Positions 12,205 to 28,576 of a stretch of 36,795 nucleotides of DNA are shown here, piece by piece. Position 1 is the first letter of the stretch; every line of letters starts with the position of its first letter. Source of the stretch: Gemmatimonadota bacterium (GTDB taxonomy: Bacteria; Latescibacterota; UBA2968; UBA8231); assembly GCA_002712305.1 (NCBI GenBank), contig PATE01000087.1, positions 24,066 to 60,860 on the forward strand, written 5' to 3'. The notes below the pieces were generated by a model, which was given only the letters and a program-made list of their open reading frames with translations, was not told the origin of the DNA and did not search any database. Position numbers and translations under genes: made by a program.

Positions 12205-13469
12205 TAGAGTCGTCCGTGGGAGCGCATGATATCGAGCATACGATCCAGGGGCAGGGCATGAATCCTGTTGCCATCGCGGCCAACCATCGTCGTGGCCATG
12301 GTCAACGAATTGAGGATGGCCTCCTGCGTCGACTCGACGACGCCCTGATAGAGGCGGGACAGATGCCGCATGTGGAGTGCCCGCGTCTGCCCAGACTCAT
12401 CATTCGGAGCTGTGGAGAAGGCCAGCAGCAGGTCGCCACTTCCATGGGCCGCCACGGTTCCTGTTCGAGCGGCTCCGAGGGCCGCGCGTCGACAGAGTCG
12501 GTGCAGATGTGTGGGCAACAGAGGTGCATCGGTGGCCACCACCACCAGCAGAGAGTTGCCCGGTACCGATGTCGGCACGGCTGAGACGTCGACAGAGTCG
12601 GGCATCAGATCGTCGATCTGTTCGCCCACCGGCACGCCGTCCACGCGCAATTCGGAACGCCGGCCGACGTTCGCCTGCACGAGGACCCCCACCTGATAGG
12701 GCGTCGATGCCGCCTCTACCTGGCGCGAAGAGGTGCCGATTCCCGCCTTGAAGGCAAAGGCGCGCATCCCGGTACCACCGCCGACGCAGCCCTCGACGAC
12801 GGGCCCGGAGGCGGCCGTGTTGAGAGCCTCGGCCACTTCTGCGGGGCCGATGTGACGACCACCGGTGTCGTGCAGCGTGTTGGCCCACGTCTCCCCCACG
12901 ACCGGCGCCGAGATGGGCATCCGGTCGAGGCAGAGGGGATCACGTGAGAGCATCCATTCCAGCGCGCCGTCATAGACCGACCCGACGGATCCCGTATCGG
13001 TGAGCAGGATCGGAGCTGCGAGTTGCCCGGTACGTCGAATCGGTCCGGTACCGGTGAGTTCGCCATTCCCATTGAGGATCCAGTCCGCCGCGGCGACCGG
13101 TTCACGCCAGTGGTCGGTTGAGCGTGGCAGAATCGCCGTCACCCCACTGCGCACCGGTCCGTCGCCGACCACGAGGGGACCTTCGCCGAGAATGCGTGTC
13201 GCGTGGCCCACGTGAACACCAGCCACATCGGTGATCGCGTTGTGAGGGCCCGTGGGCAATTGGCCTATGGTGATTCCGAGCTGCCGCAGTCGCTGGCGAG
13301 GTATGCTCCCTCCCGACGGGGAAGCCACAGCGGAAAGACATGATGTGGACAGACTTGAGAGGGCCAGCGAGCCGACACCGACGCCGAGGAATCGCCGGCG
13401 GCTGAGTCCGCCATGGACGCTGCGGGGTTGGTTTGGCCCTGGTGCCGGTCCATCGCCACCGCCTGGCAT
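12204..13469 (-). CDS. Tat-exported P1-family peptidase (DmpA-like), possible lipoprotein
   Basis: This is a paralogue of the next P1 gene but carries an export signal: twin-arginine SRRRFLG (23-29), a hydrophobic stretch and LSTSC with Cys44 as a possible lipobox. P1 hallmarks are NAITDVAGVHVGHA (77-90), VGGGTGMRAFAFKAGIGTSS (229-248) and NSLLVVVATDAPLLPTHL with Ser306 as the expected nucleophile. Tat export suits a protein that folds and self-processes before crossing the membrane. I place the start at ATG 13469 (421 residues) because it overlaps the PhyH stop as TGATG and keeps the whole Tat signal; a longer reading from 13544 would only duplicate PhyH coding sequence. No lesion is seen. 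Confidence 0.87.
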   Translation of the reverse strand: MPGGGDGPAPGPNQPRSVHGGLSRRRFLGVGVGSLALSSLSTSCLSAVASPSGGSIPRQRLRQLGITIGQLPTGPHNAITDVAGVHVGHATRILGEGPLVVGDGPVRSGVTAILPRSTDHWREPVAAADWILNGNGELTGTGPIRRTGQLAAPILLTDTGSVGSVYDGALEWMLSRDPLCLDRMPISAPVVGETWANTLHDTGGRHIGPAEVAEALNTAASGPVVEGCVGGGTGMRAFAFKAGIGTSSRQVEAASTPYQVGVLVQANVGRRSELRVDGVPVGEQIDDLMPDSVDVSAVPTSVPGNSLLVVVATDAPLLPTHLHRLCRRAALGAARTGTVAAHGSGDLLLAFSTAPNDESGQTRALHMRHLSRLYQGVVESTQEAILNSLTMATTMVGRDGNRIHALPLDRMLDIMRSHGRL

Positions 13470-14341
13470 CAGGCCTCTTGGCTCTCGATCAGCGCCTTGC
13501 ACTGACGCAGACCGATGTCGGCCCGATCTTCGAGTCCCTGCCACGCATAAGGATCTTCGCCGTGGACCATGATGATGTCCCGGTAGTCAGCGCGGGCTGC
13601 GGTCTCTCCCTCGCGCGTCTGCCAAGGCAGGCGGGACCATGCGTTCATGTAGTGGTTCACAAGGACACGCCGATAGGTCTGACTGCGATTCTTCCGTGAC
13701 CGGTGCAGCAAGTAGCCGTTGAAGAACACCACGTCACCGGCCTTCACCACCACGGGGACTTCTCCACTGTCATCGAATCCATAGGACTCGGCTGCCTTAT
13801 CGAACTCCTCCGGATTCTCGTGGACGCGCTGTTCGTACAACACGCCCTTGTTCGACCCGGGCAGCACATAGAGGCAGCCATTCTCGACGGTGGCGTCGTC
13901 GAGTGCGATCCAGGCACCCGTAAGAGACTGATCTCGCGTGGGGATGTAGATCTCGTCCTGATGCCAGGCCTGGCCTTGAAAACCGGGTGGCTTGATAAAG
14001 AGCATGGACTGCATGCATTTCACATCGGGGCCGATGAGACGCGACAGAACGCGAGCGACACCCTCATGACAGACCCCGGATTCCCTCATGAGGGGGCTGA
14101 TCTTGTGGGGAAAGTGGATACACAGAAAGTTGCGAAGTGCTTCGTCATCACTGGTGGTGGATGGCATCGTCTCGAGCTTGTCGTGCGGATATCCACCTCG
14201 GCAGATGTGCAGGGCGTCAGCCCGCAGTGACTCTACCTCGGCGTCAGAAACCAGTCCGGGAACCACGAGGAATCCCTGGTCATGATAACTCTCCACGTCG
14301 GCATCTGTGATCGGAGATTCAGTTGTGAGGTCGCTCATCAT
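13469..14341 (-). CDS. Phytanoyl-CoA dioxygenase (PhyH) family protein 1
   Basis: This is a putative Fe(II)/2-oxoglutarate-dependent oxygenase of the PhyH family with unknown substrate. Counting from ATG 14341, the iron triad is His127-x-Asp129 (AWHQDEIYIP) and His213 (GYLLHRSRKN), and an Arg about 10-12 residues later fits the 2-oxoglutarate carboxylate. The double-stranded beta-helix element ENGCLYVLPGSN is typical. The start is ATG 14341 or 14338 (ATGATG); an upstream in-frame ATG at 14410 would run into the dehydrogenase gene. It is the first gene of a coupled cluster, its stop overlapping the Tat-P1 start. The 31-base gap from the dehydrogenase may join it to that transcript. Confidence 0.9.
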   Translation of the reverse strand: MMSDLTTESPITDADVESYHDQGFLVVPGLVSDAEVESLRADALHICRGGYPHDKLETMPSTTSDDEALRNFLCIHFPHKISPLMRESGVCHEGVARVLSRLIGPDVKCMQSMLFIKPPGFQGQAWHQDEIYIPTRDQSLTGAWIALDDATVENGCLYVLPGSNKGVLYEQRVHENPEEFDKAAESYGFDDSGEVPVVVKAGDVVFFNGYLLHRSRKNRSQTYRRVLVNHYMNAWSRLPWQTREGETAARADYRDIIMVHGEDPYAWQGLEDRADIGLRQCKALIESQEA

Positions 14342-14372
14342 CGTCTTCTCGTTGAAGGTGATTCTAGGTGAT

Positions 14373-15452
14373 TCAGTTACACGCGGCGGCGATGGCTTGA
14401 CCCAGTTCATGGGTCTTCATCGTTCCTCCTATATCTGGTGTGGCGGCCTTCTTGTCGGCCAATACAAGGCGAACAGCGTCTTCGATTCGTGCGGCAGCGG
14501 CCAGTGCTTCTTCATCGTCATGGCGATGACCAAGCCAGCGCCACATCATCGCTGCGGAAAGGATCGTGCCTACGGGGTTGGCCACTCCCTGACCGGCGAT
14601 ATCGGGGGCCGTCCCGTGGACAGGCTGAAAGACGGCGGCATCCTCGCCGATGTCACCTGAAGGGGCCATACCCAGGCCCCCCACCAGACCGGCTGCAAGA
14701 TCGGACAGGATATCGCCGAACATGTTTTCCGCCACGAGCACATCGTAGGTCTGCGGCTGTCGCACGAGATAGAGCGCCATGGCGTCGACGTAGGCGTGAT
14801 CTGCTGTGATGGCGGGATAACCCGTACCCACCTCGTCGAAGATCTGACGAAAGAACGCCATGGAGCGAAAGATATTGGCTTTGTCGACGCAGGTGACGCG
14901 GCCCGGTGGGTTCCCGGATCGCGCACCGGATCTCTGCTGGGCGAGTTCGAAGGCGTAGCGAACGATTCGCTCGGTACCTGTGCGCGTGATGACCATGCTG
15001 TCCACAGCCATCTCCCCTCGCAGCTGAATACCACCATTCATCGAAGCGAAGAGACCTTCCACGTTCTCACGCAGCAGCACGAAGTCGATGTCCCCCGGAC
15101 CATAACCCTTCAAAGGACAGTGATCGGCCGTGTAGAGATAGATCGGACGCAAGCCGGCGTACAGATCGAGCAGGAATCTCAGGTCGACCTGGGGCCGCAT
15201 TTCGGTACCGTCAGGCCAGCGCACATCCGGAAGCCCCATCGCACCGAGCAGAACTGCATCCGCTTGCCGGCAGGCCTCCACCGACGCTTCGGGCAGGGGA
15301 TCGCCCGTCTCCTTGTAGCAGTCGGCACCGGAGGGGTGCTCACTGAAACTCAGGACCGGCCCCCCTGCGGCATCGAGAACCCGCAATGCTTCATCGACAA
15401 CATCCGGGCCAATGCCGTCTCCTTTGAGCACGGCGATCTGGTAACTCGACAT
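14373..15452 (-). CDS. Isocitrate/isopropylmalate dehydrogenase family enzyme
   Basis: This NAD(P)-dependent beta-decarboxylating dehydrogenase oxidises a 2-hydroxy acid such as 3-isopropylmalate, isocitrate or tartrate. Seen are the N-terminal [22 protein letters not shown], the catalytic Lys region [10 protein letters not shown], the metal-binding [20 protein letters not shown] and the nucleotide-binding [17 protein letters not shown]. The substrate loop ([21 protein letters not shown]) resembles LeuB/tartrate dehydrogenase-type proteins, but I cannot fix the substrate; leu genes are not adjacent. I chose ATG 15452 (359 residues), where the family's [15 protein letters not shown] begins; an upstream extension to 15656 has no family resemblance. 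A gap of 190 bases separates it from the divergent unknown gene, leaving room for two promoters. Confidence 0.88.
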
Positions 15453-17935: not shown

Positions 17936-19027
17936 GTGAAGATCACTGCGCTTCGTGCGACCCCTGTTCGTATTCCCCGCCCTACAGCATTCACCAGCAG
18001 CCTCGGCACCCATGCGGCCACAGAAAATGCCGTCATCGAGATTGAGACCGACTCCGGATTGGTTGGAATCGGCGAGTCCTCGAGCATCTGGGACCGCATG
18101 GGCGTTGGCTGTGCCGACGACATCAACGGCCTGCTCGCCGGGCTGCTCGTGGGTCGCGACGCAGCACGCATTCGTGAACTGACCGACCTGATGGACGCCC
18201 ACCTCGATCGCGCCCAGCCCGCCAAGGCCGGCATCGAGATGGCTCTTTGGGACCTGCTGGGCAAGAGTGTAGACGCTCCCGTCTACCAGCTTCTTGGCGG
18301 CGCCGTGCGAGACAAGGTCGAATTGTCCCGCTCGTTGTCCATGGGCACCGTCGAGCAGGTCATGGAACAGGCCAAGCGTCTCGTGGGTGAGGGTTACCGC
18401 ACACTGAAGATGAAGGTTGGCCGCGATCCGGCCAGCGATGCGGCCAACCTGGAATCGTTGCGCAGTCGTTATCCGGAACTGAAGCTGCGCGTCGATGCGA
18501 ACATGGGCTGGCGCAATCCGAAGGAGGCTGTCCGGCACATCCACGACCTGGAGGCCTTCGGCATCGAAATGGTGGAGCAACCTCTGCACGGCAGCGACCT
18601 GGAAGGACTTCGTTTCGTGCGCGAACACGTAGAAGTGCCCATCATGGCTGATGAAAGTGTCTGGACCCCGTCTGACGCCATGGCCTGCGTCCGAGCCGGT
18701 GCCGTCGATGTGTTCAACGTCTATGTCGCCGAAGCCGGTGGGATCGGGCCCGCGGCCAGGATATTCGGCATCGCTGATGCGGCGCGACTGACGTGTATCA
18801 TCGGCAGCATGCCTGAGTTTGGCATCGGTACCTCCGCCCAGGCCCATCTGGCCTTTGCCATGCCAAACATCGGCTACGGCAGTGACGTGAATGGCTTCGT
18901 CTATCACCAGGACGATGTGGTCGACCACAGTCTTCGCATCGAAGACGGTCACCTTCTGCCACCGACTGGGCCAGGCCTCGGTGTGCAGCTCGACGCAGAA
19001 CGCCTTGCCCGCTACCGGATGGACTGA
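17936..19027 (+). CDS. Enolase-superfamily enzyme (mandelate racemase/muconate lactonizing type)
   Basis: Enolase-superfamily enzymes abstract a proton next to a carboxylate to racemise, dehydrate or cycloisomerise acids. The alpha/beta-barrel shows the KxK motif (LKMKVG, Lys158 and Lys160) and the three metal ligands Asp187 (RVDANMGW), Glu214 (VEQP) and Asp239 (ADES). GSMPEFGIGTSAQAHLA near residue 290 is typical of the muconate-lactonizing branch. In that branch a second Lys is expected near residue 263, where I read NVYVAEAGG with Tyr263, so the catalytic pair looks incomplete. Length (363) is normal, and the GTG start gives the standard MKI N-terminus. It is followed 8 bases later by the HisA-like gene. 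Confidence 0.87.
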   Translation: MKITALRATPVRIPRPTAFTSSLGTHAATENAVIEIETDSGLVGIGESSSIWDRMGVGCADDINGLLAGLLVGRDAARIRELTDLMDAHLDRAQPAKAGIEMALWDLLGKSVDAPVYQLLGGAVRDKVELSRSLSMGTVEQVMEQAKRLVGEGYRTLKMKVGRDPASDAANLESLRSRYPELKLRVDANMGWRNPKEAVRHIHDLEAFGIEMVEQPLHGSDLEGLRFVREHVEVPIMADESVWTPSDAMACVRAGAVDVFNVYVAEAGGIGPAARIFGIADAARLTCIIGSMPEFGIGTSAQAHLAFAMPNIGYGSDVNGFVYHQDDVVDHSLRIEDGHLLPPTGPGLGVQLDAERLARYRMD

Positions 19028-26887: not shown

Positions 26888-27712
26888 CTATTCAGGATCG
26901 GGCCACGGCTGCAGCAACTCACGCTGCGCCTTGGAGAGTCGCTGGCGAGTCGCCTCTGTCACGTGCTGACGCTCGTCCATGGTGGAAATGTTCTGCGACA
27001 TCATCCAATAGGGACCGTATCCCACGTGCAACGTCTTGCGCACCGTATCGGAATGATTCGTCCGTCCACCGTGGCGCAGCGCTTCGGTGAAGAAGATCGC
27101 ATCGCCGGCCTTCACCTCGAGGCTGATTGTGCCCGGTTCAGTGTCGGGATCGCTCCCATACGGCGGCGGGAGATTCACCTTGTGCGTACCCGGAATGACG
27201 GTGAAGGCCCCGCCGTCGTGATCGTTGTCGTGGATGAAGTAGATCATGCGCACCATCATGCAGTCGATGCGCCCTTTTGTGAAGTTGTAGCGATACTTTT
27301 GATCCTCACCGCGCGCTCCGCCGTGATGGGGGCTGTTGTTGCCCTTGTAGCGAATACGGATCTCGGAGTTGTTGATCGTCGGGCGCGGCATCACGATGCC
27401 ACGGACATAGTCCATCGTCCGCTCGTGATCCAGCAGCTGATCGAAGGCGGGGTCTGCATTCCAAAAGTCTTCGATGATCAGCGTCTTGCCCTCTTCGCGA
27501 GCGCCCTGCACGTGATAGCCGTGTTCCGGATCGGCGTGATACTCGGCGCCCCAGGGCGACTTCTTGCGCGGAGGCAGATCGACGTTCGCCGCGGCGTGAT
27601 CCTCAATCCAGTCGACGGCAGTGCTCAGAGAGGCAACCTGATCCGGGTTGAGCATGTCCTTGATCACGATGTACCCAACCCGATCAAACTCGTAGAGCTC
27701 TTCTTCGGTCAT
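26888..27712 (-). CDS. Phytanoyl-CoA dioxygenase (PhyH) family protein 3, HxG variant
   Basis: This 274-residue protein belongs to the PhyH superfamily: YEFDRVGYIVIKDMLNPDQV at the start, DGGAFTVIPGTHKVNLPPP as the conserved core strand and AGDAIFFTEALRHGGRTNHS with His214 as the distal iron ligand. An Arg follows (Arg225) for 2-oxoglutarate. Where HxD is expected, the only candidate is His129-His130-Gly131 (NNSPHHGGARGED), so the acidic ligand seems replaced by Gly. I associate an HGG-type sequence with a PhyH subgroup in uncultured bacteria; iron/2-oxoglutarate halogenases also lack the carboxylate. Substrate and activity are unknown. It is last in the minus-strand cluster after the kinase and hydrolase genes. 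Confidence 0.85.
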   Translation of the reverse strand: MTEEELYEFDRVGYIVIKDMLNPDQVASLSTAVDWIEDHAAANVDLPPRKKSPWGAEYHADPEHGYHVQGAREEGKTLIIEDFWNADPAFDQLLDHERTMDYVRGIVMPRPTINNSEIRIRYKGNNSPHHGGARGEDQKYRYNFTKGRIDCMMVRMIYFIHDNDHDGGAFTVIPGTHKVNLPPPYGSDPDTEPGTISLEVKAGDAIFFTEALRHGGRTNHSDTVRKTLHVGYGPYWMMSQNISTMDERQHVTEATRQRLSKAQRELLQPWPDPE

Positions 27713-27757: not shown

Positions 27758-28576
27758 TCAAACACGAGGGGCACCATTCCATCCCAGCAGGCGTGCCAGA
27801 TTTCCGCCCTTCACAAGCGCTCGATCCGCATCAGAGAAGGCCTCCAGGTGTGTGTCCACGATAGCCGGCGTCCCCGATCCCCACACCATTCGCTCCGGTC
27901 CAAAGGCATCCACGACGCGGCGCGTGAAAGGCAGGGCACTCTCGTAGAGGGGTTCATCCTTCGCGAAATGTCCCAGGCCTGACAGCTTCATGTACACGTT
28001 GTCAAAGTGGGCAAGATCGAGGACATGCGAAAACTCCACGGCATTGCCCATGTGCGGTTCGGCGAGATGATCGATCAACACGACCGAGTCTGGAATGTCT
28101 TTCAAGACACCGGCCACCTGCTCGGCGTAGTCAGGGCCGATGTGCAACTCGATGATGAGCCCGAGATCGACCGCCTTCGACCAGAGGGCACGCACACAGT
28201 CCTCGTGGAAATCGTGCAGATACTGCTCCTTGCCACGATGGGCGTGGAACCGCGTGGACACCAACCGAGGCTGCTTCGCCACGAGTTCGGCCAGGCGTTG
28301 GGGCGCGCCATCATCAGAGGGGTACAGCAGGGTCGTCCCGAGGAACTTCTCGGGCTCGCGATCGAGACAATCCAGTACCAGCCGATGGTCATCGCCGTAG
28401 GGCTCGGGGTGCACGAGCACGGCGCGGTCGATGCCCTCCGCCTCCATGTGCTCCATGTATTGTTGCAGCGGGTCTGCCGCCCTCGTGGTAAGATCCGGGC
28501 GATAGGAAGCCCGCTCGTGGAGAGGAAACCGTTCGGTATCCGGGTGAAAGATGTGCTGATTCCACTCGATAATCAT
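27758..28576 (-). CDS. Amidohydrolase-2-like (COG3618-type) TIM-barrel protein with altered metal motifs
   Basis: This 272-residue TIM-barrel protein resembles the COG3618 lactonase/amidohydrolase group: HPEPYGDDHRLVLDCLDREP, LIIELHIGP (His145), VVLIDHLAEPHMG (His170) and MVWGSGTPAIVDTH (231-244). The family normally opens with DxHxH; here the opening is WNQHIF (5-10), with Asn for Asp and Phe for the second His. The late GSDWP motif reads GSGTP, losing the catalytic Asp. It may belong to a subgroup with different chemistry or have no hydrolase activity. The ATG is 10 bases past the histidine kinase stop and the gene is followed by PhyH 3, so the three genes look like one operon. Confidence 0.75.
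   Translation of the reverse strand: MIIEWNQHIFHPDTERFPLHERASYRPDLTTRAADPLQQYMEHMEAEGIDRAVLVHPEPYGDDHRLVLDCLDREPEKFLGTTLLYPSDDGAPQRLAELVAKQPRLVSTRFHAHRGKEQYLHDFHEDCVRALWSKAVDLGLIIELHIGPDYAEQVAGVLKDIPDSVVLIDHLAEPHMGNAVEFSHVLDLAHFDNVYMKLSGLGHFAKDEPLYESALPFTRRVVDAFGPERMVWGSGTPAIVDTHLEAFSDADRALVKGGNLARLLGWNGAPRV

Follow-up and report, generated by a model that had tools for sequence, protein, structure and literature searches.

PhyH 3, encoded in the 36,795-nucleotide stretch of DNA analysed here (the window), is most likely a HygX-like oxygenase, with kinship to HygX evident from both sequence and fold. It has lost the aspartate that binds iron in canonical enzymes of the PhyH family, and a conserved glutamate elsewhere in the protein, Glu210, probably takes over the job of that aspartate, as judged from ortholog and paralog alignments. 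The corresponding positions in the window are:

26888..27712, minus strand: PhyH 3, HygX-like Fe(II)/2-oxoglutarate oxygenase of 274 aa (open reading frame, PF05721 match, AlphaFold2 model and HygX kinship).
27317..27325, minus strand: H130-G131-G132, the proximal iron motif, where Gly replaces the usual Asp (reads HGG; orthologs and paralog columns).
27083..27085, minus strand: Glu210, candidate replacement carboxylate four residues before the distal His (66/66 orthologs; coupling among paralogs; codon checked in the window).
27071..27073, minus strand: His214, distal iron ligand (66/66 orthologs; codon checked in the window).
27038..27040, minus strand: Arg225, expected 2-oxoglutarate anchor (66/66 orthologs; codon checked in the window).

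PhyH 3 belongs to the PhyH family, scoring 61.7 bits against PF05721 (Pfam; protein without its first Met), above the curated gathering cut-off of 22. Of 84 relatives 80 were kept, and 65 of these (L061-L125, 49-92% identity) were entered as orthologs in an alignment of 66 rows that includes PhyH 3 itself; the other 15, at 22-33% identity, were excluded. Of the 65 orthologs, 52 entered alignment A1, along with the window sequence and 7 of those 15 distant loci. Ortholog records include Latescibacterota, Gemmatimonadetes, Chloroflexi, Verrucomicrobia, Planctomycetota, Poribacteria and Paenibacillus, and a single match at E 1e-60 is found in 29 of 64 genomes of the phylum, one of them truncated. 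The AlphaFold2 model of PhyH 3 has a pLDDT of 94.3 and a pTM of 0.92. Its weakest inner block, residues 131-140 (pLDDT 74), contains G132.

An earlier note on this DNA had proposed that PhyH 3 lacks the iron-binding Asp, and this is borne out: the proximal position carries neither H-x-D nor H-x-E, and G132 occupies the Asp column of the canonical 2-His-1-carboxylate pattern. The motif itself had been placed at His129-His130-Gly131. This register was rejected, as position 129 is variable across the 66 rows, and the conserved motif is H130-x131-G132. H130, H214 and R225 are each present in 66/66 rows, G132 is Gly in 64/66 (the remaining two rows are gapped there), while position 131 is G in 35/66 and M in 28/66. 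Furthermore, 106 H-x-D motifs of paralogs from the same genome share exactly the H130 and G132 columns in an L-INS-i alignment. Because it is conserved in 66 sequences, the loss of the Asp is neither chance nor a sequencing slip; the absence is real and conserved. Glu136 and Asp137, offered as fallback ligands, were discarded as substitutes, with Glu at position 136 in 19/66 and Asp at position 137 in 9/66 orthologs. The Gly is lost in the orthologs L092 and L095 (THQP and THRP), both of which keep Glu210, His214 and Arg225. PhyH 1 and PhyH 2 of the window are canonical, as had been claimed, with WHQD and WHRD respectively. PhyH 1 (13469-14410, minus strand) scores 57.6 bits against the chlorinating-enzyme model TIGR01762 (cut-off 226.3), despite its canonical WHQD.

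HygX is the best sequence match among solved structures (phmmer 1.9e-8; 2.3e-17 with the ortholog profile). A profile of the H-x-G class, made from 30 rows of which three are PhyH 3 or its orthologs, scores HygX at 113 bits, the next being ectoine hydroxylase at 75, with SyrB2 at 60 and CytC3 at 53. HygX also occupies Foldseek ranks 1-16 for the PhyH 3 model, and a second structural aligner places it first (Z 24.9, rmsd 2.2, 215 residues, 26% identity); the next family follows at Z 23.3, so the lead of HygX is modest on fold alone. HygX is hence the nearest solved relative by both sequence and fold. FtmOx1, SptF, AsqJ and AndA are also found among the fold matches; they have the fold in common, and no function was inferred from them. 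When models of the paralogs were resampled, HygX scored higher against Asp-less than against HxD models in 25/25 resamplings (mean 62 vs 27 bits), and PhyH 3 did likewise (148 vs 93 bits).

The profile alignment places HygX LHGG on the HxG of PhyH 3 and HygX NEALMH on PhyH 3 TEALRH, with the HygX Glu at about residue 202 of its chain. PhyH 3 accordingly carries, as H130, G132, E210 and H214, the H-x-G and the Glu four before the distal His that characterise the HygX group. A phmmer search with PhyH 3 as sole query put its HHGG on a different stretch of HygX; the profile register was followed because three profile alignments agree. Within the L-INS-i alignment, the proximal site of the partial HygX segment is shifted out of register, and HygX was therefore not counted in the tree table. 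The abstract of the 2015 paper on HygX is said to describe variation in its metal coordination. HygX has been solved with iron (4zpi), and also with nickel and 2-oxoglutarate (4xca, 4xcb), according to the PDB entry titles. It is called a nonheme iron, 2-oxoglutarate oxygenase in the available text of a review (PMC8234114), and a demonstration of HygX turnover was not found in the texts consulted.

Glu210 is Glu in all 66 ortholog rows. Its behaviour outside the orthologs was followed among paralogs from the same genome, found with an iterative profile in genome loci and counting fused ORFs once. This near-complete census yielded 161 ORFs, 153 without repeats and 152 without PhyH 3; 147 of the 152 rows were classified, the other five being gapped or without one His. 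The 32 rows without a proximal carboxylate have Glu (25), Asp (2) or neither (5) at the position four residues before the distal His (His-4). The 115 rows with H-x-D or H-x-E have a non-acidic residue (109) or Asp (6) there, and none has Glu. The 5/32 Asp-less rows without either carboxylate and the 6/115 HxD rows with Asp at His-4 speak against Glu210 as a replacement for the Asp.

We screened 21 acids of PhyH 3, namely those acidic in >50/66 orthologs. The Glu210 position is acidic in 27/27 HxG paralogs, rows that were selected for this acid, vs 6/115 HxD rows. The runners-up (HxG vs HxD paralogs) are Asp10, an N-terminal residue (26/27, 33/115), Asp162 (23/27, 88/115) and Asp34 (20/27, 69/115), leaving Glu210 as the only screened acid that is kept throughout the class yet seldom seen in HxD enzymes. 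Orthologs retain an acid at the positions of Asp150 (65/66) and Glu117 (66/66), but both were rejected as replacement ligands, being acidic in 0/27 and 2/27 HxG paralogs respectively. The residue two after the proximal His (His+2) is G, S or N in the acid-bearing rows of this genome, and P in two orthologs (HQP, HRP). Such variation alongside a constant acid suggests that it is the acid that is required and not an empty pocket for halide. A separate observation concerns relatives on plasmids, of which there are three records. Of the two examined, the Paenibacillus sequence L294 is a canonical HxD enzyme, and L293, from an unannotated record of Cupriavidus necator plasmid pBB1, reads LHHE and apparently has one Glu at His+2 and another four residues before the distal His, a point against the replacement role of Glu210.

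The number of times this coupling arose is small. On a quick tree with one row omitted, the Asp-loss/Glu trait needs about 3 changes vs a shuffled mean of 33.5. The Asp-less class forms nearly one branch of the tree, and the coupling consequently rests on few independent events; an independent-pairs test had no power. A Fisher p-value for the association was set aside on the same ground; its tables, moreover, had 116 HxD/E rows vs the 115 recounted. Searching the 64 genomes with the class profile favours Glu at His-4 by construction, and the resulting rows, which were tabulated together with L126-L140 and the plasmid loci, are not counted as independent support.

Taking these observations together, we consider it probable that PhyH 3 is a HygX-type Fe/2-oxoglutarate oxygenase with a relocated carboxylate, its iron held by H130, H214 and Glu210, the latter acting directly or via water. 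In the proposed mechanism, His130 and His214 would hold the iron and Arg225, a role we take over from the family, would anchor 2-oxoglutarate. Glu210, from another part of the barrel, would supply the carboxylate that the H-x-D Asp gives canonical PhyH enzymes; direct binding to the iron is the likeliest arrangement, contact via a bound water the next. Oxidation of a C-H bond by the ferryl intermediate would follow, as hydroxylation, demethylation or oxidative cyclisation, with halide unneeded. Demethylation of 2'-O-methyl nucleosides is known for some bacterial members of the PhyH family from the available text of PMC12709175, which does not mention an iron site of the present type.

It is possible, though we lean against it, that two histidines suffice. 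PhyH 3 would then bind iron through His130 and His214 with water in the vacated site, and it would hydroxylate and not halogenate, with Glu210 in the second sphere ordering water or substrate. AspH, an enzyme of a different family from PhyH 3, provides the model. The available text of PMC13168262 describes AspH with two His ligands and a water bound tightly where the carboxylate would be, with halogenation not found. Glu223 of HctB, at the same position as Glu210, is likewise described as second sphere in the part of PMC6218459 available. Against two histidines alone, the coupling of the acid at His-4 to Asp loss (27/32 vs 6/115) suggests that the acid has a role linked to the lost Asp, albeit on the few independent events noted above.

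Halogenation by PhyH 3 is unlikely. Of the halogenase-like reading in the earlier note, the absence of the Asp stands, but the analogy to SyrB2-type halogenases is not supported: the nearest solved relative, HygX, is an oxygenase that also has H-x-G, the TIGR01762 score is low and Glu210 is conserved. That note had named beforehand, as an outcome contrary to halogenation, a predicted or solved structure with an Asp or Glu from elsewhere bound to the iron. The conserved Glu210 points to an outcome of this kind, its bond to the iron being a proposed one. Against TIGR01762 itself, PhyH 3 reaches 11.9 bits (cut-off 226.3), and among the candidates scored per genome (at most 31) no match above the cut-off was found in any of the 64 phylum genomes. 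PhyH 3 does lack a carboxylate at His+2, as enzymes of the TIGR01762 type do. At distal His -4, however, it has Glu and not the Ser of SyrB2 and CytC3.

The most favourable form of the halogenase reading is an HctB-like enzyme with halide in the vacated site beside Glu210, for which H-x-G would open the space. The established halogenase HctB likewise carries Glu at distal His -4, its site comprising His111, Val113, Glu223 and His227 in the available text of PMC6218459. The QM/MM models given there show Glu223 bordering the halide corner across from Val113 (His111 +2), lying on the Fe-Cl axis in model 1 and turned from the metal in model 3. These models therefore indicate that the distal His -4 position can be near the vacated site, and that Glu at His-4 does not by itself forbid halogenation. 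Nonetheless, we regard a halogenase of this kind as improbable. The closest kin of PhyH 3 is a non-halogenase, SyrB2 and CytC3 combine H-Q-A with Ser at His-4, the score against TIGR01762 falls far short of the cut-off, and the residue at His+2 is looser than a strict halide pocket would suggest. Moreover, replacing the carboxylate by Gly did not by itself suffice for efficient halogenation in a homologue of BesD (available text of PMC13244439), and prolyl 4-hydroxylase (P4H) D414A/G does not halogenate (available text of PMC2767507). Since AspH hydroxylates and P4H D414A/G is without halogenation, a missing Asp does not by itself identify a halogenase.

There is, in addition, a slim chance that the whole class with H-x-G and Glu at His-4 makes up a large group, so far unrecognised, of halogenases resembling HctB or of anion-transfer oxygenases. 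Glu210 would then not be a fixed ligand but a gate for halide or another anion in the vacated site. If this were true, the present genome would encode about 27 such enzymes besides PhyH 3, and halogenation would occur in many uncultivated members of the Latescibacterota, Gemmatimonadota and Chloroflexota. Among the open-licence papers found, no title or abstract opening describes the class.

That PhyH 3 is an inactive pseudo-enzyme keeping only its fold is very improbable: the usual iron ligand is lost and degenerate PhyH domains do occur in this genome (L054, L209), but the two histidines, the Arg and Glu210 are kept in 66/66 rows across orthologs of several phyla, and the degenerate rows are also without the Glu.

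One neighbour of PhyH 3 recurs at ortholog loci:

27758..28576, minus strand: amidohydrolase (Amidohydro_2; PF04909, 103.7 bits), directly upstream of PhyH 3 and a possible operon partner.

This protein is weakly like 4-sulfomuconolactone hydrolase (92.5 bits, cut-off 500). At ortholog loci, a relative of it lies upstream on the same strand in at least 13 of 65 cases; in 12 the two genes are adjacent, and in L066 they are about 2 kb apart. The count is a lower bound, as many ortholog loci end early. Pfam named no antibiotic-pathway or halogen-specific genes among the neighbouring ORFs (17 entries, one ORF twice), and several of these ORFs have no Pfam family and may not be genes. Elsewhere in the window, a gene of the mandelate racemase/muconate lactonizing enzyme family (17936-19027, plus strand) adjoins PhyH 2, which could fit a sugar-acid catabolic neighbourhood.

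The PhyH family is extremely expanded in this organism, with at least 152 matches in one 4.77 Mb genome; that this figure equals the 152 paralog rows is a coincidence. Many genomes of the same class hold at least dozens of related matches each among the candidates scored. Two of the paralog ORFs, L054 and L209 (about 584-608 aa), carry two PhyH domains each. One domain is without the proximal His, and the other has HDG or HDA with Gly at distal His -4; we presume that these may be pairs of a catalytic and a non-catalytic domain, like the TlxIJ heterodimer. L060 and L165 have an H-x-H proximal site (HQH and HGH) and a non-acidic residue at distal His -4, for which a three-His iron site is possible judging by these motifs. 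L033 and L034, two H-x-G matches on contigs C16 and C67, have identical scores and lengths and represent either a recent duplication or an assembly duplicate. PhyH expansions may be treated in PMC5395668 (SAR202) and PMC3909097 (Poribacteria).

PhyH 3 adds one member to the already known HygX-like oxygenases. It provides a simple sequence rule for the PhyH family: a Gly replacing the iron-binding Asp, together with Glu four residues ahead of the distal His, indicates a HygX-type oxygenase and not a halogenase or dead enzyme. A site of this type, without the Asp and with an acid at His-4, is found in 27/147 classifiable paralog rows of this genome, PhyH 3 aside, and labels such as 'halogenase' or 'inactive' given from the missing Asp alone would therefore often be wrong. 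Should Glu210 be a direct ligand, PhyH 3 would be a natural case of a facial-triad carboxylate moved to another strand.

Comparison with known systems places PhyH 3 as follows. With the canonical PhyH enzymes (human PhyH, 2a1x, and PhyH 1 and PhyH 2 of the window) it shares the PF05721 fold, the distal His and the Arg, whereas those have H-x-D and the human enzyme has Pro at His-4. SyrB2 and CytC3 have the fold superfamily in common with PhyH 3 and are likewise without a carboxylate at His+2, but pair H-Q-A with Ser at His-4 where PhyH 3 pairs H-x-G with Glu. HctB, the hectochlorin halogenase, was compared by site residues and resembles PhyH 3 in its Glu at distal His -4 and its non-carboxylate (Val) at His+2; it is described in the available text as a three-domain carrier-protein halogenase. 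Human AspH (aspartate/asparagine beta-hydroxylase) is similarly an Fe/2-oxoglutarate hydroxylase without a carboxylate ligand, although no replacement carboxylate is described for it in the available text of PMC13168262. HygX (PDB 4xc9, 4xca, 4xcb, 4zpi) differs in its sequence (about 26% identity), in a longer loop after H-x-G and in belonging to an antibiotic pathway (hygromycin B), whereas the ORFs scanned near PhyH 3 named no such pathway. What HygX and PhyH 3 hold in common is the H-x-G, the Glu four before the distal His, and then the Arg.
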